In this document: one piece after another, positions 6,711-23,961 of the stretch | Numbering within the stretch: the first letter of the stretch is position 1 | How the letters are laid out: every line of letters begins with the position of its first letter | Translations under genes and position numbers: made by a program | Notes under the pieces: model-generated | The model's input: only the letters and a program-made list of their open reading frames with translations | The model's database searches: none | What the model was told of the DNA's origin: nothing | IMG/VR virus record: IMGVR_UViG_3300046002_004872 | Span: 1-23,961 of that record | Strand: one strand, 5' to 3' | From: a virus | DNA length: 23,961 nt

Positions 6711-7487
6711 ATGGCAAAGCAGACCTTCACGACGGGCCAGGTGCTCACAGCAGCACAGATGACATCGCTGCAACAGACAGCAATGCTGGGTGGAGATACA
6801 ACCGCAAAGACAATTAGTTATACGCTCGTCGCAGCTGACGCAGGCACGACAGTCGCAATGTCAAATGCAGGTGCAACCACGATCACAGTAAACACTTCAT
6901 TATTTGCAGCAGGCGACATCGTTACTATTGTAAATCTTGGCGCAGGAGTTTGCACAATCACCGCAGGAACGGCAACTGTTAGCACTTCAGGATCCCTTGC
7001 TCTTGCCCAGAATCAAGGCGGCGTTCTTAGATTTACAAGCGCAAGCGCAGCTATCTTCTTTCAGTTTGCAACACCAGCATCTGGTGACATTGAAGGCGTA
7101 AGTGTAACTAGCCCAATAACAGGCGGCGGAACAAGCGGTACTGTCACTATTGGCTTTGATGCCAAAGCTGCTAACACTTTAACTTTTAATGCTCAAACAG
7201 GTACTACCTATACCCTCGTGGCTGCCGATGCATCTAATAAGTTAGTTACAACATCTAACGCCTCGGCTGTAACAGTAACGATCCCACCTAGCGTTTTTGC
7301 AGCCGGTGAGCAAATCAACGTGCAGTCAATCGGTGTAGGCCTTACAACTTTTGCTCAAGGCGCTGGAGTAACTATTACATCAACAGGTGCTGTAGCAACT
7401 GCTCCAGTGCTACGCGCTCGTTATTCAGCCGCTACTGTCATTTGCACAGCCTCTAATACATTTACAATTATTGGCGATCTATCGTAA
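6711..7487 (+). CDS. Fibre-like structural protein with internal duplication
   Basis: A 258-residue, Ala/Thr/Gly-rich, almost Cys-free protein with a strong ribosome site (AAGGAGAAGAT before ATG). It begins MAKQTFTTGQVLTAAQMTSLQ, a start seen in many phage tail appendage proteins. Two related beta-rich units follow: SYTLVAADAGTTVAMSNAG at about residues 36-54 and TYTLVAADASNKLVTTSNAS at about residues 165-184. Each leads into a strand, then LFAAGD or VFAAGE and a repeat of ITVT-type strands. Between them is the linker PITGGGTSGTVTIGFDAK, a pattern found in fibre proteins. Codon choice changes within this gene: the first two thirds favour ACA/GCA/ATC, the last third ACT/GCT/TTT. It is probably a tail fibre or a fibre attachment protein. 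Confidence 0.7.
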   Translation: MAKQTFTTGQVLTAAQMTSLQQTAMLGGDTTAKTISYTLVAADAGTTVAMSNAGATTITVNTSLFAAGDIVTIVNLGAGVCTITAGTATVSTSGSLALAQNQGGVLRFTSASAAIFFQFATPASGDIEGVSVTSPITGGGTSGTVTIGFDAKAANTLTFNAQTGTTYTLVAADASNKLVTTSNASAVTVTIPPSVFAAGEQINVQSIGVGLTTFAQGAGVTITSTGAVATAPVLRARYSAATVICTASNTFTIIGDLS

Positions 7488-8047
7488 TGAGTTCAATTTT
7501 AGGAATCATCGCATCATCGATGAAAGGTGTCAGTGGGGCTTTTGAGTCTATTGCTAGCGCTAGCGGCACTGGATCATCTGACACTATTACTTTTAGTTCT
7601 ATTCCTAGCACATATAAACATTTACAAATTAGAGCAATGGGTCGCTCCACAGGTACAGATGCCAATCCAGCTATTAACTTTAATGGTGATTCTGGAAGCA
7701 ACTATGCTTATCATTATTTGTTTGGAACAGGTGCTAGTGTGATTGCCAGCGGATCTGCAAGCGTAACAAGAATTGGTGATGTTTTGTGGGCTACTAATTC
7801 TAGTAATGCTGCAAACACTATGGGTTTAACTCTTATTGATATTCATAATTATTCTTCAACTACTCAAAACAAGACTGTCAGGATATTTAGCGGAAGAGAT
7901 TTGAACGGTTCTGGCGGCAATGCAGTTTTAATGTCAGGTTTATGGATGAACACAAATGCAATAACTTCTGTGTCAATAAAATTAACAGAACTGACTAATT
8001 TTTGGACAACATCCTCTGTGTTTTCACTTTACGGAATTAAGGGGTAG
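7487..8047 (+). CDS. Fibre / receptor-binding-like protein, paralogue 1
   Basis: A 186-residue, Ser/Thr/Asn-rich protein starting on the last base of the previous stop (TAATG). A short hydrophobic lead (MSSILGIIASSMKGVSG) precedes a beta-rich domain with SDTITFSSIPSTYKHLQIR and ends in SVFSLYGIKG. The block (T)ITFSSIPSTY..L and the ending LYGIK recur in the two following genes, so the three are tandem paralogues. Location after the distal tail genes, low charge, and richness in Ser, Thr and Asn suggest exposed tail-tip or receptor-binding proteins. Single-domain jelly-roll-like folds would fit, but this is inference. Codon use is more T-rich at third positions than in the tail genes upstream. 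Confidence 0.65.
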   Translation: MSSILGIIASSMKGVSGAFESIASASGTGSSDTITFSSIPSTYKHLQIRAMGRSTGTDANPAINFNGDSGSNYAYHYLFGTGASVIASGSASVTRIGDVLWATNSSNAANTMGLTLIDIHNYSSTTQNKTVRIFSGRDLNGSGGNAVLMSGLWMNTNAITSVSIKLTELTNFWTTSSVFSLYGIKG

Positions 8048-8050
8048 CAG

Positions 8051-8545
8051 ATGCCATCAACATACGAGCCGATAGCGACTACTACGCTGGGAAGTGCAAA
8101 TAACTCAATTACCTTTTCTAGTATCCCCAGCACCTACACAGACCTACGCTTAGTTGTTGTTGGAACAACAAACTTAGACACAGTAGAAGTTAGAGTGCAA
8201 CTTAATAACGACACTACAAGCCTTTACTCCAATACTCAATTAACTGGTAATGGAAGCAGTGCTTCATCTAATAGATACTCATCAACCTATTTTCAGTTTA
8301 TTGGAAGTGCCAGTGCAACAATTCCTAATGTGGGAACAATGGACATAATGTCTTATGCAGGTTCAACATTTAAGACAGTTTTAACTACTTGGTCTGGTGA
8401 CTTAAACGGTTCAGGAACAGTAGAAAGAACAGTCTCTTTATATCGTTCGACTACTGCAATTTCTACTGTCAAAGTTTCTGCTTCTGGGTCTAATACTTTA
8501 TCAACTGGCACAACTGCTACTCTGTATGGGATAAAAAATGCCTAG
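8051..8545 (+). CDS. Fibre / receptor-binding-like protein, paralogue 2
   Basis: A 164-residue paralogue of its two neighbours. It starts MPSTYEPIATTTLGSANNSI, runs through ITFSSIPSTYTDLRLVVVG, has a central variable part rich in Ser, Asn and Thr, and ends TATLYGIKNA. It lacks the hydrophobic lead of paralogue 1 and instead shares the MPSTY start with paralogue 3. The stretch KTVLTTWSGDLNGSGTVERTV parallels KTVRIFSGRDLNGSGGNAV of paralogue 1, so homology extends beyond the terminal motifs. The stop lies 8 bases inside the next gene. Function is inferred from position and composition only. Confidence 0.65.
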   Translation: MPSTYEPIATTTLGSANNSITFSSIPSTYTDLRLVVVGTTNLDTVEVRVQLNNDTTSLYSNTQLTGNGSSASSNRYSSTYFQFIGSASATIPNVGTMDIMSYAGSTFKTVLTTWSGDLNGSGTVERTVSLYRSTTAISTVKVSASGSNTLSTGTTATLYGIKNA

Positions 8546-9077
8546 TACCTACACACTTATCAAAGGCGAGACAATCGGATCGGCTGCTGCCTCTTATACC
8601 TTTAGTGCTATTCCTAGTACCTTTACGGATTTATGTTTGAAATATTCAGTTAGGAGCAGTTCTGCTGGAACACACCAACAAGAAATGTTTATTTCTCTTA
8701 ATGGGGCAACTAGCGGAACTACAACATCTCAAACAGATTTATATGCTAGTAGTTCAACTATTGCTTCAAGCAGGTTTGATACTTCTTACCCAGGGTTTAA
8801 ATGGATAAACATTTATGAGCCTGGAAACAGTGCAACTTCTGACACATTTAACAATGCTGAAGTTTATTTCACAGACTACGCTGGTTCAAATCAAAAGGTT
8901 GCTTCGTCTTTTTATGTTTCAGAAAATAACACTTCAACAGATCTTCGATCTTGGATAGGTGTTAATGCTTTAAAATCTACAACTACTACAGCAATTACTT
9001 CAATCACTTTGGGTAATCAAGCTGGAAACTTTGTATCAGGATCAAGTTTTTATTTATACGGCATCAAATCTAGTTAA
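8538..9077 (+). CDS. Fibre / receptor-binding-like protein, paralogue 3
   Basis: A 179-residue paralogue beginning MPSTYTLIKGETIGSAAASY, with YTFSAIPSTFTDLCLKY matching the ITFSSIPSTY..L block of the other two, and ending SSFYLYGIKSS. The middle diverges most (DFNNAEVYFTDYAGSNQK type sequence) but keeps the D-YAGS element also present in paralogue 2 (MDIMSYAGSTFKTV). It overlaps the previous gene by 8 bases; ATG follows GGGATAAAAA. A likely exposed tail appendage subunit. Three tandem related genes can arise by duplication and then diversify to recognise different receptors. Confidence 0.65.
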   Translation: MPSTYTLIKGETIGSAAASYTFSAIPSTFTDLCLKYSVRSSSAGTHQQEMFISLNGATSGTTTSQTDLYASSSTIASSRFDTSYPGFKWINIYEPGNSATSDTFNNAEVYFTDYAGSNQKVASSFYVSENNTSTDLRSWIGVNALKSTTTTAITSITLGNQAGNFVSGSSFYLYGIKSS

Positions 9078-9687: not shown

Positions 9688-9885
9688 ATGACAGTCCAGG
9701 ATTACGCAGCTCTGGCCGTTTCACTTCTTACAATTGGCGGAGCATTTATCGCGATGACCAGATGGCTCGTTAAACATTACTTGCAAGAATTAAAACCAAA
9801 CGGGGGCAGCTCAGTCAAAGACCAAGTCAACCGATTGGAAAAGCGCGTCGATGAAATCTATCTCCTTCTTTGCAAAGAAAAGTAG
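9688..9885 (+). CDS. Small membrane protein with one transmembrane helix (holin-region)
   Basis: A 65-residue protein; the start is the ATG following GGAG of the preceding gene's last codons, not an earlier in-frame ATG inside that gene. Residues about 7-24 (ALAVSLLTIGGAFIAMTRW) form a transmembrane helix, followed by a charged part and a C-terminal coiled-coil stretch (VKDQVNRLEKRVDEIYLLL). This one-helix plus short coiled-coil design is common in small membrane proteins near actinophage lysis genes. It may assist the holin, but there is no direct evidence. The last 35 bases overlap the next gene. Confidence 0.7.
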   Translation: MTVQDYAALAVSLLTIGGAFIAMTRWLVKHYLQELKPNGGSSVKDQVNRLEKRVDEIYLLLCKEK

Positions 9886-11098
9886 CGCACTAACAGTTTT
9901 AATCTTGGCCTTTGCCACGTCTTTATTTAATCCAGTAATTGCAAAAGCAGCAGATTCACTGGTTCAAAATGTGCAAATAACCTGCGCCAATTCAGCAGGA
10001 GAAACACACACCGCAATGACTGGTTGGAACGCTGATAACCCATACTTTGAAGGCAAGGGCGATATTGCCAGACTATTTTGCGAAGGCGGATTCGTAGGCG
10101 AGTGGACAATATATGTCAGCGATAACTACACAGGCAATGCCAGATATTACCAATCAATAAATCCGACACCAACACCAACACCAACACCAACACCAACACC
10201 AACACCAACACCAACACCAACACCGGAACCAACACCGACACCGACACCGGAACCAACACCGACACCGACACCAGAACCATCGCCTAACGCTTCACAAATT
10301 GCAGCAGAAGCAGATCGCATTAAGGCAGAAGAAGACGCCCGTATTGCAGAAGCGGCGCGAGCGCAGGCCGAAGCAAACAGAATCCAGGCAGAAGAAGCAG
10401 CTCGGATTGCAGAAGCAGATCGAATTAAGGCAGAAGAAGCAGCTCGGATTGCAGAAGCAGATCGAATTAAGGCAGAAGCAGATCGGATCAAGGCCGAAGA
10501 AGACGCTCGAATTGCAGAAGAAGCCAGGATTGCGGCCGAAGAAGCAGCTCGGATTGCAGAGGAAAATCGCATCAAGGCAGAAAAAGAAGCCAGGATTGCA
10601 GAAGAAAATGCCCGGATTGCAGAAGAAGAAGCCAGGATTGCAGAAGAAGATGCCCGGATTGCAGAAGAAGAGCGCATCAAGGCCGAAGAGGAAGCAAACA
10701 AATCGCAGGCTGAAAAAAATAAAGTTATAGTTGCCGAATTAATTGCGCAAGCATTAGAAAGTGGCAATCCGATAAGTGTTGAAAATTTAACACAATCGGG
10801 CGTTGAACTTTCAGACTTGCCACCGCAAACTTCAATTGAACTTAGCAATGGCGTCGTGATCAGCGCCGAAGTTGCAATCGAAGTCGAACTGCTACAAGAC
10901 CCGGCAGCATTTATCACAGAAGCATTCACGAACCCATTAGCAGCACTTTCTGCTTTGGGCAGCGTGGGAGCAGACATGACACCTGAAACACGTGAAAAGT
11001 CTGAAAAAGTTGTTCTCTCAGCAATCATCGCAGGCAATATTGCTACGCAAGCAGCAACTACAGCAGCAGCAATGGCCACTTACCGAAGGAATCCATAA
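9851..11098 (+). CDS. Secreted Pro-Thr/coiled-coil protein, probably envelope-spanning
   Basis: A 415-residue protein. Residues 1-33 form a signal peptide: basic start (MKSISFFAKKSS), hydrophobic core (LTVLILAFATSLF) and a likely cleavage after AKA. A small domain with two Cys (residues about 35-103) follows, then a Pro-Thr run at about residues 105-144, then about 140 residues of imperfect repeats of the type RIAEADRIKAEEA that should form a long coiled coil. The C-terminal 125 residues include an acidic domain and end in an Ala/Thr/Val/Ile-rich segment followed by YRRNP, possibly a membrane anchor. It sits between two small membrane protein genes and the holin/endolysin. The start overlaps the previous gene by 35 bases and only this ATG gives a signal peptide. 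Phage-encoded exported proteins of this shape are unusual; host origin, lysis or superinfection control are all possible. Confidence 0.7.
   Translation: MKSISFFAKKSSALTVLILAFATSLFNPVIAKAADSLVQNVQITCANSAGETHTAMTGWNADNPYFEGKGDIARLFCEGGFVGEWTIYVSDNYTGNARYYQSINPTPTPTPTPTPTPTPTPTPTPEPTPTPTPEPTPTPTPEPSPNASQIAAEADRIKAEEDARIAEAARAQAEANRIQAEEAARIAEADRIKAEEAARIAEADRIKAEADRIKAEEDARIAEEARIAAEEAARIAEENRIKAEKEARIAEENARIAEEEARIAEEDARIAEEERIKAEEEANKSQAEKNKVIVAELIAQALESGNPISVENLTQSGVELSDLPPQTSIELSNGVVISAEVAIEVELLQDPAAFITEAFTNPLAALSALGSVGADMTPETREKSEKVVLSAIIAGNIATQAATTAAAMATYRRNP
10163..10278 (+). repeat. Hexamer tandem repeat encoding a Pro-Thr linker
   Basis: About 19 hexamer units of CCAACA, interspersed with CCGACA and CCGGAA, encode (PT)n with regular PE interruptions. 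The first half is nearly pure CCAACA, so slippage could change its length. It is in frame with the secreted protein and lies between its N-terminal domain and coiled coil. Confidence 0.9.
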
Positions 11099-12210: not shown

Positions 12211-12474
12211 ATGAATCGGGGGGAAATTCTTGAAGAAGCAGCTCGACTCACAGCCAAAGACCGCCAGAACATCTACGGCGATCCAAGAAACAATCACGTA
12301 AGAATTGCAGATTTATGGACGACATATCTCGAGCATCAGATAACCCCACAACAAGTGGCCATATGCATGGCGCTAGTTAAAATTGCACGCTTGATGGAGA
12401 CAGAGACAGAAGACTCCTTCGTAGATTTAGCGGCATACGCAGCGATCGCTGGCGAGATTGCGACAAACGAATGA
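12211..12474 (+). CDS. DUF6378-like protein
   Basis: An 87-residue protein with the phrases KDRQNIYGDPRNNHVRIADLW, ITPQQVAICMALVKIARL and DSFVDLAAYAAIAGE, which I recognise as the phage DUF6378 pattern. Its residues HxRIAxLWxxYL, then VxxCMxLVKxARL, then D.xVDLAxYxAIxxE resemble all-alpha nucleotide-pyrophosphohydrolase-like folds, but activity is unproven. The ATG lies three bases after the previous stop; the gene overlaps the glycosyltransferase-like gene by four bases (ATGA), tying it to the sugar cluster transcript. Confidence 0.8.
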   Translation: MNRGEILEEAARLTAKDRQNIYGDPRNNHVRIADLWTTYLEHQITPQQVAICMALVKIARLMETETEDSFVDLAAYAAIAGEIATNE

Positions 12475-13148
12475 AGGAAATGATTATCCTCGTACCAACC
12501 AGAGGACGCCCGAGCAACGCGGTCGAATTGCTGGGAGATCACGAAAAACTTTCGACACATTCAGACATCCTCTTCGTTATTGATGCAAACGACCCAGAGC
12601 ACGACGCCTACGAATTGCAAGTCGGCAAAGACAAATGCATGACGATTGAGAACGAAACCCGGGGCATGGCTTATCCAATCAACAAAGCAGCAAGCGCAAT
12701 TGTAAAGAAGGGCGAATATAAATACTTCGCCTTCCTCGGCGATGACCATCGCCCACGCACAGCCGGCTGGGATGGCCTTCTTATCCAGGCGATGGCGAAG
12801 CGGCCGTCAATGGCCTACGGCAACGACTTGCTGCAAAGGGAACGACTTCCAACCATGATCGCAATGACAAGTGACATCGTTAAAGCGCTCGACGGAATGG
12901 TTCCGCCAAAGATGAAGCATTTATACCTTGATAACTTCTGGAAGAAACTAGGCGAAGATTTAGGTGCGCTGACTTATCTCGATCACGTTATCGTTGAGCA
13001 TATGCACCCAATTGCTGGCAAAGCCGAATGGGATGAAGGATACAAGGAAGTCAACGCAACCGAAATCTACGCATTCGACGCGCTCGCTTACCAGAACTAC
13101 ATTCAGAGCGAAGCCTACGAATTACTCAAGCGCAAACTAAGGCCATGA
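12471..13148 (+). CDS. GT-A type glycosyltransferase-like protein
   Basis: A 225-residue protein. The N terminus has a nucleotide-sugar transferase opening (MIILVPTRGRPSN at about residues 4-16), then a strand (ILFVIDANDPEHDAYE) and the acidic motif GDDH at residues 90-93 in FAFLGDDHRPRTAGWD, where GT-A enzymes have the metal-binding DxD. The C-terminal half (DVIVEHMHPIAGKAEWDEGY type) fits an acceptor side. It is linked by ATGA overlaps to both neighbours. It probably transfers a sugar to an unknown acceptor such as a virion protein, DNA base or host glycan. The residues resemble GT2-like transferases of phages, with no exact family assigned. Confidence 0.7.
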   Translation: MKEMIILVPTRGRPSNAVELLGDHEKLSTHSDILFVIDANDPEHDAYELQVGKDKCMTIENETRGMAYPINKAASAIVKKGEYKYFAFLGDDHRPRTAGWDGLLIQAMAKRPSMAYGNDLLQRERLPTMIAMTSDIVKALDGMVPPKMKHLYLDNFWKKLGEDLGALTYLDHVIVEHMHPIAGKAEWDEGYKEVNATEIYAFDALAYQNYIQSEAYELLKRKLRP

Positions 13149-13858
13149 AGCAGCTCATCGCATACTCCTTATACGGCAGCGAAGAGCGATACACGATCGG
13201 TGCGATCAAGAACGCAATTCTGGCAACCAGGCACTTCAAAGGATTCACACTTCGCTTTTACACCGGGGCCTCGGTTTCAGAATCCATCAAGCAAACCCTT
13301 CGCCTCTTGCCCCACGTGCAGATCGTAGATCAAGGAGGGCCAGAAGACCACAGGGCCAAACTCTGGCGCTTTCAGGCTTTAACGGATCAGGAATTCGACG
13401 TCGTTCTCAGCCGCGACGCAGACGCCAGGCTCACGCACCGGGAACGGATTGCACACGAAGAGTTTCTAGCAAGCGGCCTCGATTTCCACATTATGAAAGA
13501 CCATCCCACAGGCCACAATTACAAGATTAGCGCCGGCATGTTTGCAGCTCGTACCAGCGCAATCCCGGCGGATTTAGCGATCGCAGAAGGCCAGAATTAT
13601 TACACGCAAGATCAAGACTGGCTTGCGACTGAACTTTGGCCACAGATCAAGGACAGCGCCCTGATCCACGATGAGAGCTACGAAACCCCCACCGAAGGCA
13701 AGAGCAAGCGCCGCCCATTCCCGATTGCAAAGAAGGCGACCCTTCACCACATCGGGGCAGCCCTAGAAGCAGATGATCGCTTCGTCTTTAGCGTTGACCA
13801 GGCAATGGCAAAGAGCGAATCAGGAAGCGACAGATATCTGGCAGAATGGCTCTTATGA
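13145..13858 (+). CDS. Second glycosyltransferase-like protein with a DxD motif
   Basis: A 237-residue protein beginning MKQLIAYSLYGSEERYTIGA, with a strand and helix characteristic of a nucleotide-sugar binding fold (LRFYTGASVSESIKQTLR) and DxD at residues 91-93 in LSRDADARL. The middle has HEEFLASGLDFHIMKDHP, and later a region ISAGMFAARTS that fits the acceptor loop of GT-A enzymes ('..GmfA.r...'). C-terminal sequence includes HHIGAALEADDRFVF. It is not similar enough to the preceding protein to call it a paralogue. ATGA overlaps at both ends suggest a single translation unit. Likely a metal-dependent glycosyltransferase. Confidence 0.7.
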   Translation: MKQLIAYSLYGSEERYTIGAIKNAILATRHFKGFTLRFYTGASVSESIKQTLRLLPHVQIVDQGGPEDHRAKLWRFQALTDQEFDVVLSRDADARLTHRERIAHEEFLASGLDFHIMKDHPTGHNYKISAGMFAARTSAIPADLAIAEGQNYYTQDQDWLATELWPQIKDSALIHDESYETPTEGKSKRRPFPIAKKATLHHIGAALEADDRFVFSVDQAMAKSESGSDRYLAEWLL

Positions 13859-14718
13859 AGATTCTTATAACAGGAGACGCCGGCTTCGTCGGCCGCGCCT
13901 TTCACAGAGCGCTAGATAACAAAGGCCATGAGATCACCGGCATCGACATCGCAAACGGCATCGATTGCAGGGATTTCTTCAAGAAGGACGACACCAGATA
14001 CGACGTAGTTATTCACCTCGCAGCAATCGTCGGGGGCAGGGCCACGATTGAAGGCAACCCTTTGGCCGTTGCCAGCGACCTCGCAATCGACAGCGACATG
14101 TTCCAGTGGGCAGTAAGAACCAAACCAAAGCATCTTGTTTATTACAGCAGCTCGGCGGCATACCCAATTTATTTGCAAAAAGCCGCCTACAAGCAAAGAC
14201 TTCGAGAAGGCGACATCAATCTCGACCACATTCGCACGCCAGACTTGAGCTACGGATGGGCAAAATTAACAGGCGAAACTTTGGCACAATACGCAAGAGC
14301 AGAAGGAATCAAAGTCAACATCCTGCGACCATTTAGCGGATACGGCAGCGACCAGGCGCTCGATTACCCATTCCCATCCTTAATCGCACGCGGCAAAGCC
14401 AAACTTGACCCATTTGAAGTATGGGGAACAGGCGAGCAAGTCCGCGACTTTATTCACATCGACGACGTTGTTGCAGCTACATTCGAAGCGATCACAAACA
14501 ACATTCAAACCTTAAACCTTTGCACTGGGCGACCGGTTTCATTTATCCAGCTCGCAGAGATGATCATGTTGGCGCAGGGATACTTGGCCCCAATTAAGAA
14601 GCATCCAAGTAAACCAAGCGGAGTCGAATACCGAGTAGGCGACCCCACAAAAATGTTGAAGATTTATGAACCAAAGATCAGCCTAGAAGAAGGAATCGCC
14701 AGAGCACTTGCAGAATAA
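13855..14718 (+). CDS. NAD-dependent nucleotide-sugar epimerase/dehydratase
   Basis: A 287-residue extended short-chain dehydrogenase. The ATG overlapping the previous stop (ATGA) gives MKILITGDAGFVGRAF, with the Rossmann glycine motif GxxGxxG at residues 7-13. IDIANGIDCRD and HLAAIVGG (strand 4 'HLAA') follow, then YYSSSAAYP with the catalytic Ser/Thr, and the catalytic pair Tyr133-x3-Lys137 in SYGWAKLTGE. Later VWGTGEQVRDFIHIDDVV is the common C-terminal sugar-binding motif of GDP-fucose-synthase- and UDP-glucose-epimerase-like enzymes. It would supply an activated sugar for the two transferases upstream. Substrate cannot be told from sequence. The gene ends at a strong terminator. Confidence 0.88.
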   Translation: MKILITGDAGFVGRAFHRALDNKGHEITGIDIANGIDCRDFFKKDDTRYDVVIHLAAIVGGRATIEGNPLAVASDLAIDSDMFQWAVRTKPKHLVYYSSSAAYPIYLQKAAYKQRLREGDINLDHIRTPDLSYGWAKLTGETLAQYARAEGIKVNILRPFSGYGSDQALDYPFPSLIARGKAKLDPFEVWGTGEQVRDFIHIDDVVAATFEAITNNIQTLNLCTGRPVSFIQLAEMIMLAQGYLAPIKKHPSKPSGVEYRVGDPTKMLKIYEPKISLEEGIARALAE

Positions 14719-19414: not shown

Positions 19415-19615
19415 ATGGAAGACCAGAACGCGATGCTCAATGCGATTCTAGATCAGATCGAGATATGGCAACGACGGCCCACGCCAGAGTCATACAAAGA
19501 CCTATGCTGTGCCATCGAAAGAGAGCGCGGATTCAAAGAAGGCCTTCGACTTAGCGGAGCCATTGTCCGTAGCTTCTTGATCAAGATTGAAGAAGAGCAA
19601 GCAGACGACGAATGA
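19415..19615 (+). CDS. Small acidic helical protein before the primase
   Basis: A 66-residue protein with a ribosome site AGGGGGTAACA before ATG. It starts MEDQNAMLNAILDQIEIWQR and is mostly helix, with a central CC (LCCAIERERGFKEG) and an acidic tail (IEEEQADDE). It overlaps the primase-helicase by four bases (ATGA), which suggests coupled translation and possibly a role beside that enzyme. No family recognised. Confidence 0.7.
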   Translation: MEDQNAMLNAILDQIEIWQRRPTPESYKDLCCAIERERGFKEGLRLSGAIVRSFLIKIEEEQADDE

Positions 19616-21678
19616 GCAATGCAATTCTTACGACAGCGCTCCGCTTTGCAGCAGCTGGAATTAGCGCCGTTCCAGTAGCAGCCGACGGATCTAAACGCCC
19701 CGGATTGCCAGCATGGACGGCCTACCAGAAGAAGCGACCAACACCCGAAGAATTAATGGGCTGGTTTGCTAAGAAGCAAGACGGCGTCGGCATTATCTGC
19801 GGATCCGTATCTGGCAACCTCGAAATGTTGGAACTTGAAGGCAGAGCCGTCGCTAAGAAACTTCACATCGAACTGCGTGAGATATTCGAAAGTAGCGAGC
19901 ATGGACATCTTTGGACAAAGCTCGTCAACGGATACATGGAAGCAACACCTTCCGGCGGAATTCACTGGCTCTACCGAATAAGCGACGGCAAAGTGCCAGG
20001 CAATACCAAGATCGCACAGGCAGCCGGTGAAGACGGCGGATGCCTAGCAGAAACACGCGGTGAAGGTGGATTCGTGATCACAGCGCCATCTGGCGGCAAG
20101 TGCCACCCTTCAGGCAACGCCTGGCAGATCAGCGCAGGATCCATTGAAACAATTCCAACCTTCACGATGGCAGAGCGCGAGATTATTCACCAGTACTTCG
20201 CACTTTACGATGAAGTACCAAAGGCTGAATGGATAGAAGAAGAGACGAAGCCACGCAAAGACGGCATCGAGACACCAGGAGATGCTTATAACGAAACCGT
20301 CACCTGGGAAAGCATTCTCGAACCCCTGGGATGGACAAAGGTTTATAGCAAAGGCGAATCGACCGCCTGGCGACGTCCAGGCAAGTCCGAAGGCATATCA
20401 GCGACGACAAACTTCAACGGCAACGGCAAACTCTTCGTCTTTAGCACCTCGACAATTTTCACAGCTCAGAGCAGTTATTCAAAATTTGCCGCCTACACAC
20501 AGATAGAGCACAAAGGTGACTTCAAAGCAGCTGCATCACATCTGCGATCGCAGGGCTTCGGGGCAAAGACTGAACTGCGCACTGATTGGCAACAAATCGA
20601 AGCCCATAACCCGAGCCACGTGCAACTCCACGATGAGAACGAAGAGATCGCAACCAGCTCGTGGATTCCACAGGACATCACCGATATGCAACTCGAAGAT
20701 GAACCCGGGCCATCGATTCTAAAGCGCGAAGACGGCAACCATATCCTTTATGCAAACAAGATAAACGCCATCTTTGGAGAGAGTGAAAGCGGCAAGACTT
20801 GGATCGCCATCGAAGCGGTGCGCCAAGAATTAGCCAAAGGTCACTGCGTCTTTTACATGGACTTCGAAGACAGCGCTCGCGGAATTAGAGGTCGCCTCAA
20901 GACCATGGGCGTGGCAACTTCAGGGCTGCGACATTTCAGATACGCAAACCCAGACGAAGGAATCACACGTGGCATCGTCGAAGTCATCCAAAGCGAGATT
21001 CAGATCCACAAACCATCCTTGATCGTTATCGACGGCGTCAACGCAGCGATGAACTTGCTCGGCCTAGACTTGGAGAAGAACAAGGATGCCACCACATTCT
21101 CCCAGCTCATCCTTCGCCCACTTCGAATGGAAAACGCGGCCATCTTGACTATTGACCACGTCACGAAGAGCAAGGACACCAGGGGCAACTACGCCATCGG
21201 AGCACAGGCAAAGAGAGCAGACATCGACGGCGTAGCGATTGCAGTCGACGTGGCGATGCCATTTGGCAGGGGCTTGGACGGTTGCCTGAATCTAAAAGTA
21301 ACCAAAGACCGGCCAGGATTTGTCCGCGCCATCTGCCAGGACGCCAAAGACCTCGGTGTCGCAAACTTGAAGAGCAACAAAGACGGAACGATTACCGTCA
21401 CGATTAGCGGCGGCACGATCGTGGTGACGACGAAGGAGCAGAAGCTTCAGGAACTTTCCAACTTCTTCGAACAAACCGGAACCGAGATGGGCCAGAACGA
21501 CATCCGCAAAGGGCTTCGACAAGAAGGAATTGAGATCGGCAACCAGGAACTAGGGCAGGCTTTGGAACAGCTCATCGCTGGTGGCTTCGTCGAATTTAGG
21601 AAACAAGGGCAGAAGTATCTCTACAAATTTAAGACACAATTCATGATCGGCGACGTCAATGCATGGGAAGCGGAGTAA
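19612..21678 (+). CDS. Prim-Pol / RepA-like helicase fusion (replicative primase-helicase)
   Basis: A 688-residue protein. N-terminal part (about residues 1-200) is a bifunctional primase/polymerase (Prim-Pol) domain: AAAGISAVPVAADGSKRPGL, DGVGIICGSVSGNLEMLELEG (the acidic motif position) and SGGIHWLYRI with the conserved His. A middle linker (about 200-370) includes AWRRPGKSEGISATTNFNG. From about residue 370 is a RecA/RepA-like ATPase (AAA_25 type): Walker A GESESGKT at residues 389-396, Walker B LIVIDG with Asp474, and a sensor ILTIDHVTK. A C-terminal winged-helix part (EQKLQELSNFFEQTGTE to IAGGFVEFRKQGQ) may bind DNA. It would prime and unwind phage DNA. The candidate origin lies directly downstream. 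Confidence 0.9.
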   Translation: MSNAILTTALRFAAAGISAVPVAADGSKRPGLPAWTAYQKKRPTPEELMGWFAKKQDGVGIICGSVSGNLEMLELEGRAVAKKLHIELREIFESSEHGHLWTKLVNGYMEATPSGGIHWLYRISDGKVPGNTKIAQAAGEDGGCLAETRGEGGFVITAPSGGKCHPSGNAWQISAGSIETIPTFTMAEREIIHQYFALYDEVPKAEWIEEETKPRKDGIETPGDAYNETVTWESILEPLGWTKVYSKGESTAWRRPGKSEGISATTNFNGNGKLFVFSTSTIFTAQSSYSKFAAYTQIEHKGDFKAAASHLRSQGFGAKTELRTDWQQIEAHNPSHVQLHDENEEIATSSWIPQDITDMQLEDEPGPSILKREDGNHILYANKINAIFGESESGKTWIAIEAVRQELAKGHCVFYMDFEDSARGIRGRLKTMGVATSGLRHFRYANPDEGITRGIVEVIQSEIQIHKPSLIVIDGVNAAMNLLGLDLEKNKDATTFSQLILRPLRMENAAILTIDHVTKSKDTRGNYAIGAQAKRADIDGVAIAVDVAMPFGRGLDGCLNLKVTKDRPGFVRAICQDAKDLGVANLKSNKDGTITVTISGGTIVVTTKEQKLQELSNFFEQTGTEMGQNDIRKGLRQEGIEIGNQELGQALEQLIAGGFVEFRKQGQKYLYKFKTQFMIGDVNAWEAE

Positions 21679-21684
21679 ACAGCC

Positions 21685-21824
21685 TGTGGATAACTTAACT
21701 GTTCCGCCGTTCCGCACCGTTCCGCACCGTTCCCCGGAACACCTCGGCAAGAGCGACCAAACCGTTCCGCTGTTCCCCCCCTATAAGGGGGAACGCGGAA
21801 CGGTGGAACAGCAGCCAAAGGAAC
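21685..21824. repeat. Iteron-like array and large hairpin (candidate replication origin)
   Basis: The gap after the primase-helicase holds a DnaA-box (TGTGGATAA, 21685-21693, reverse of TTATCCACA). Three contiguous 10-bp repeats follow: GCCGTTCCGC (21706), ACCGTTCCGC (21716), ACCGTTCCCC (21726), preceded by a partial copy with GTTCCGC at 21701, and another ACCGTTCCGC at 21761. GTTCC also occurs at 21772 and, inverted as GGAAC, at 21736, 21790, 21797, 21805 and 21820. ACCGTTCCGC-T-GTTCCCCC (21761-21779) pairs with GGGGGAACGCGGAACGGT (21787-21804): 18 bp with one bulged T and a 7-base loop. There is no T-run after it, so it is a poor terminator. Origin, operator, or both are possible. Confidence 0.6.
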
Positions 21825-21831
21825 AGAATAA

Positions 21832-22206
21832 ATGATGAATTCAAACTTTACCCCCATCTTTTGCACAGGCTGTGGAAAACTTCTCTGGCAAGGTTTCACC
21901 GTCGGATTTCAGATCAGACTTGACCCCGGAACTTTGACCATTCAAGAAGAGATTATTAAACGAATCCAGGGCAGCCGAACATTTGAACTACATAGGACGG
22001 CCGTATCATTTGAAGCGGATCTGCGATCGGTGAATGCCATCCAGAGAAGCCAGGGCAGGCAGCCATTAATTCTAGCCAGCCATACTTGCAGTAAGACGAT
22101 GGAGATATTCAGACTCAAGGGCCAAGAACCGGACGCCGATGAGATCCCGGATTATTGGAATAGAAGGAAGAAGCCAGAGCTCGAATACGAAGGGATACCG
22201 TTCTGA
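21832..22206 (+). CDS. Zinc-finger-like protein downstream of the candidate origin
   Basis: A 124-residue protein. It begins MMNSNFTPIFCTGCGKLLWQ, with Cys11-x2-Cys14 and a later HTCSK (around residue 83-87) that could complete a metal site. Between are LDPGTLTIQEEIIKRIQGSR and RTAVSFEADLRSVNAIQRS. I recall similar actinophage proteins with a CxxCG..L..G....R.DP..LT start whose function is unknown. Basic helix-rich composition fits DNA or RNA contact. The start could be either of two adjacent ATG codons. It overlaps the next gene by one base (TGATG). Confidence 0.7.
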   Translation: MMNSNFTPIFCTGCGKLLWQGFTVGFQIRLDPGTLTIQEEIIKRIQGSRTFELHRTAVSFEADLRSVNAIQRSQGRQPLILASHTCSKTMEIFRLKGQEPDADEIPDYWNRRKKPELEYEGIPF

Positions 22207-23926: not shown

Positions 23927-23961
23927 AAAACCTCAGATTGAACGGGGGGAGTTCACCCCGA

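Follow-up and report, generated by a model that had tools for sequence, protein, structure and literature searches.

Immediately downstream of its primase-helicase gene, the virus record IMGVR_UViG_3300046002_004872 (positions 1 to 23,961; these 23,961 bases are here called the window) carries a dense cluster of short repeats and a hairpin (21685-21824), which raises the questions of (i) what function this region serves; (ii) whether it is recognised by the protein encoded just upstream; and (iii) whether repeats and protein are inherited together. An earlier note on this DNA had suggested that this phage region is an iteron origin of plasmid type, and we consider it very probable that the region is an iteron-plus-hairpin replication origin that is recognised by the phage's own primase-helicase and exchanged as a cassette. 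We infer binding of this origin by the initiator's winged helix from the anatomy of the region, its conservation, the co-inheritance of repeats and winged helix, the exchange of the cassette, and the similar arrays of distant replicons. As the window carries a WhiB gene, it probably derives from an actinobacterial phage.

The primase-helicase reading frame, which closes at 21678 directly before the region, as had been described, combines a Prim-Pol domain (residues 9-171; Pfam PF09250, E 3.8e-13) with an AAA_25 RecA-fold helicase domain (residues 379-521; Pfam PF13481, E 8.2e-9) and matches a PHROG primase/polymerase. Its last 80 residues are predicted by AlphaFold2 to form a winged helix (pLDDT about 90 in the core), and Foldseek matches this model to winged-helix proteins in the PDB, including Hop2, Fur and BlaI; the winged-helix end suggested in the earlier note is thus a good-confidence prediction, and it is with exactly this domain that the repeat word is co-inherited (see below). 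The full-length AlphaFold2 model was poor (pLDDT 51) and was excluded as evidence. In an alignment with relatives, the class-specific residues lie directly ahead of the predicted recognition helix and at its start. A scan of bacterial and archaeal genomes returned matches solely to the Prim-Pol end of the protein.

Features of the candidate origin and its neighbourhood in the window (23,961 bases)
Feature	Position	Strand	Basis
Primase-helicase initiator	19612..21678	+	Pfam, PHROG, winged-helix model
Exchange cassette inferred from L061/L062 breakpoints, from helicase end (..ISGG) to before next gene's leader	21413..21818	+	DNA alignment
Predicted winged-helix domain (residues about 608-673)	21433..21630	+	AlphaFold2, Foldseek, tree test
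Predicted recognition helix (residues 644-656)	21541-21579	+	Winged-helix model
DnaA box TTATCCACA (reverse complement of TGTGGATAA)	21685..21693	-	Exact match
Iteron array	21701..21740	+	GTTCC cores 21701, 21709, 21719, 21729 and inverted GGAAC 21736
Hairpin, 18 pairs, bulged T21771, 7-nt loop 21780-21786	21761..21804	+	Pairing and covariation
Hairpin tip CCCCCTATAAGGG, C-run/CTNTANAG/G-run type	21777..21789	+	Common to repeat classes
Two further inverted cores, GGAAC 21805-21809 and 21820-21824	21805..21824	-	Sequence
Next gene, small Cys-pair protein without known function; right-flank control	21832..22206	+	PHROG 10480, E 2.4e-8

Forward GTTCC cores start at 21701, 21709, 21719, 21729, 21764 and 21772, and reverse GGAAC cores at 21736, 21790, 21797, 21805 and 21820, which bears out the repeats in both directions that had been reported; three contiguous 10-mers occupy 21707-21736, the third being imperfect, and the reported DnaA box is perfect. 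The array is not a product of chance, since its 11 cores per 150 bp compare with no more than five in any 150-bp segment of 100 Markov surrogates and at most four elsewhere in the window. The proposal of one helical turn per repeat holds only in part: 10-bp spacings are present, but cores are spaced 8, 10, 10 in 21 loci, as here, 8, 11 in 20 more loci of the window's class, and 8, 11 or 10, 10 in other classes. The array is GC-rich (33-42% AT) and its flanks are moderately AT-rich (up to 65% at most), so that a clear unwinding element is not seen.

The hairpin, previously described as 18 bp with one bulged base, was found as such; its arms (21761-21779 and 21787-21804) contain two iteron copies in each direction, and single strands of this region fold far better than shuffled sequences (z = -4.8 and -5.4). 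Among relatives, 99.5% of alignment cells are paired and three pairs have changed on both sides; the pairing is maintained by compensatory changes. Both this strong fold and the position of the hairpin between co-directional genes would suit an RNA element, either a terminator or an mRNA stabiliser, with the repeats being incidental. However, several cores lie outside the stem, and the direct repeats and both arms switch word together with the winged helix, making an RNA element a very improbable explanation. As a terminator the hairpin was ruled out, the region having no T-run and no match in a terminator scan, and as a known RNA family by the absence of an Rfam match. A coding function for the array was likewise ruled out, as reading frames differ between classes and the distance from the stop codon to the hairpin varies by non-multiples of three.

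The unit of array and hairpin follows the same primase gene in almost all of the relatives examined (about 100, from IMG/VR), with a constant layout in which spaced direct repeats are followed, after a gap, by a hairpin with the same word in its arms. The word itself falls into five classes (GTTCCGC, GTTTCCC, GTTCC(C/T), (C/T)GAACCT and GCGCCGA), as defined by our own motif sets. The hairpin tip (C-run, CTNTANAG, G-run) is nearly unchanged across classes, a variant in L077 and L106 being paired differently, and in each of the 12 relatives that were read whole it occurs at a single place; the unpaired base on the 5' arm is kept in most loci with a GTTCC word. A DnaA box is present in 21 of 21 loci of the window's clade and 17 of 17 of a sister clade, and in none of the 58 loci of a third clade; in those genomes of the first two clades that were measured, it precedes the hairpin tip by about 90 nt. 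When viral contigs were searched with the DNA pattern of two hairpin classes, all 57 matches had this primase upstream (in a few contigs, just the last part of the gene), and no orphan arrays in satellites were found among them.

In five relatives (L011, L012, L046, L074 and L132) the primase and the array are separated by inserted genes; the array unit is intact in all of them, and in L011, L012 and L046 the DnaA box has moved with the array. The inserted genes (L011:2637-3164, L074:7961-8869, L046:4831-5649, L132:5988-6635) are all different, and by motif the proteins in L046 and L074 resemble PAPS-reductase/DndC-type enzymes.

To follow the repeat word through the family, we counted class changes on trees of 79 relatives. 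On the winged-helix tree the repeat class changes four times, which is the minimum for five classes, whereas residues 1-590 give a tree that requires 13 changes and the next gene one that requires 12; the winged-helix tree has 87 columns, and all trees are quick ones with weak support for some groups. Consistent with these counts, among pairs of relatives at least 95% identical over residues 1-590, the 31 pairs of different class have winged helices at most 45% identical, and the 179 pairs of the same class have winged helices at least 55% identical. By these comparisons, the repeat class follows the winged helix and neither flank.

Part of this co-inheritance could be due to linkage, as winged helix and array are neighbours. 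If adjacency alone were responsible, the association of classes would say nothing of recognition, and indeed the two lie 0-100 bp apart in most relatives and the exchanged segment includes both. The downstream gene is equally close to the array, yet it does not follow the repeat class (12 changes); furthermore, many repeat copies change coherently, and the pairing is kept in loci with inserted genes. We therefore think it hardly likely that linkage without recognition accounts for the pattern.

The exchange is seen most directly in L061 and L062, which are about 99% identical over residues 1-590 and 35% identical in the winged helix, and in which every repeat differs. Their DNA is near-identical up to the end of the helicase, is replaced over about 400 bp comprising winged helix, array and hairpin, and is near-identical again from just before the next gene, the breakpoints thus falling at the domain boundary and just before that gene; within the replaced segment, the 17-bp hairpin tip is kept in register. 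By sequence, winged helix, array and hairpin thus behave as one cassette of about 400 bp that has been repeatedly exchanged between related phages, and such an exchange would change origin specificity while primase and helicase are kept.

Similar arrays follow homologous helicases in more distant replicons: the small actinobacterial plasmids p-XQ-29-C of Streptomyces (37% identity over 245 residues; hairpin z -4.7), where the AAA_25 protein is the sole recognisable replication protein, and pKRAD02 of Kineococcus, and the cultured phages MinS1 (Microcystis), P8625 (Verrucomicrobia) and Dagobah (Streptomyces), the last with the tip TCTCTTTAGAGA, as in the window's family. The array is not universal for this helicase family, since none was found in two other viruses with the helicase, Dulem virus 38 and KimJongPhill. 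In the Microbacterium phages Leaf and Hendrix (L184:5300-5560, L186:5250-5420), repeats of the ATTTCTCAG and GAATTCTCAG types follow a primase/polymerase gene, together with CCTGTGGATAAC or CCTGTGGACAAC; these are possibly analogous origins.

Co-inheritance demonstrates pairing rather than replication, and the winged helix might instead bind the array as an operator for the primase and the following genes, with replication starting elsewhere. The last iteron core abuts the start of the next gene, where it may overlap the ribosome-binding site, and an origin signal is absent from the GC skew: cumulative curves of 12 near-complete relatives, a check suggested in the earlier note, gave no consistent turn at the array, the one-strand gene maps of these genomes making skew uninformative. 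The array is, however, located after rather than before its own gene, the region contains no promoter-like site of the type scanned for, and the position of the conserved DnaA box is fixed. As the small plasmids share the same anatomy after homologous helicases and the box position is fixed in two clades, we regard an operator as unlikely and a plasmid-type iteron origin as the best reading, against which count the lack of a skew turn, the lack of a clear unwinding element and the missing DnaA box in one clade.

P4 alpha consists of a TOPRIM primase and an SF3 helicase, and P4 has a second repeat region; here, no TOPRIM, SF3 or second repeat region was found, and the 12 near-complete relatives lack a crr-like second array, containing only scattered single copies of the motif. 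P4 alpha, with ori and crr, is similar in being a primase-helicase with a C-terminal winged helix that binds repeats (PMC4234260). Origins lying directly downstream of such genes have published precedents (PMC4234260, PMC7581432). The pRN1 origin is a stem-loop after a gene for a Prim-Pol/SF3/winged-helix protein, and both pRN1 ORF904 and phage BIP-1 resemble the window's family in that a single protein comprises Prim-Pol, helicase and C-terminal winged helix, and in having an origin hairpin directly after the gene, whose structure is kept while its sequence diverges (PMC4234260). The window shares with this type the Prim-Pol, the predicted C-terminal winged helix and the stem-loop directly after the gene; in contrast, pRN1 has an SF3 helicase and no iterons, whereas the window's protein has only AAA_25/RecA-like helicase matches and is followed by iterons.

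SaPI Rep and SCCmec Cch2 are self-loading helicases with a C-terminal DNA-binding domain and short iterons directly downstream, as in the window (PMC7581432). They belong to another helicase family, the primase is separate in SCCmec and many SaPIs, and the passages of that paper used here describe no bulged hairpin with a constant tip; the window's protein is neither a DUF927 nor a D5-type helicase. In RSF1010 (IncQ), which has iterons and two ssi hairpins and serves as a model in which priming at a hairpin follows the binding of iterons (PMC4234260), an iteron binder, a helicase and a hairpin-recognising primase likewise act at one origin. These are three separate proteins (RepA, RepB' and RepC) with two hairpins, unlike the one fused protein and one hairpin here, and the window's helicase has no sequence match to a solved RepA.

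In the RepA of Vibrio cholerae PLEs, the DNA-binding domain and the origin are swapped together and must match, and for PLE RepA and ICP1 Odn the two covary and have been repeatedly swapped, much as in the phages studied here (PMC8263062). PLE RepA is, however, a RepA_N initiator of a satellite, a domain not among the Pfam matches of the window's initiator, and the need for a cognate origin, shown there by experiment, is presumed here. A search of 14 records for an Odn-like further copy of the winged helix found none. With tandem repeats at the initiator gene, to which the initiator would bind, and a DnaA box near them, the window resembles iteron-type plasmid origins; it differs from classical Rep_3-type plasmids in that the initiator is a fusion of Prim-Pol and AAA_25, and in having, as a distinct conserved part, a hairpin whose tip is independent of class. 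Combining a RecA-fold helicase with iterons and hairpin, the locus fits none of the compared families completely.

In the mechanism that we propose, the C-terminal winged helix would bind the GTTCC iterons, as the co-inheritance suggests, and binding at the spaced direct repeats would load the RecA-fold helicase ring, perhaps helped in the window's clade by host DnaA at the adjoining box. Opening of the DNA would then expose the bulged hairpin. Its C-rich tip, which is independent of class, is the likely place for Prim-Pol or the ring to engage the single strand and for priming to begin, as suggested by the stem-loop of pRN1 and the ssi sites of RSF1010.

The locus thus gives a group of uncultured, probably actinobacterial phages a concrete candidate origin and initiator, and connects iteron origins with RecA-fold primase-helicases found both in phages and in small plasmids. 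It also offers about 100 natural pairs of winged helix and presumed DNA site; these cover five specificities, and near-isogenic combinations like L061/L062 are among them, so that the recognition rule, and likewise the reason why origins are swapped, can be tested directly. PLEs switch origin to escape Odn (PMC8263062). By analogy, we tentatively suggest that the five classes might be origin-specificity types kept diverse by selection, a cassette switch avoiding interference from co-infecting relatives or from origin-targeting nucleases or satellites; if this were true, winged helix and repeats would constitute a natural, readable DNA-recognition code.

Several further features of the window were observed. 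Four relatives (G002, G003, G004 and G006) end at GGGGGGAGTTCAC, as does the window (23930-23961, about 2.2 kb to the right of the hairpin), and three of them share a start sequence; these shared ends and starts suggest a cos-type end. On its left side, the window seems to be missing about 9 kb; there are relatives of roughly 33 kb. Tandem paralogues encode two similar tail-type proteins (1282-1692 and 1653-2099) and three similar proteins (7487-8047, 8051-8545 and 8538-9077). The protein encoded at 9851-11098 has a long Pro-Thr repeat and, after it, a coiled-coil repeat of the EEARIAEE type, and 12471-14718 reads as a glycosyltransferase-like cluster with a sugar-nucleotide epimerase-like protein.
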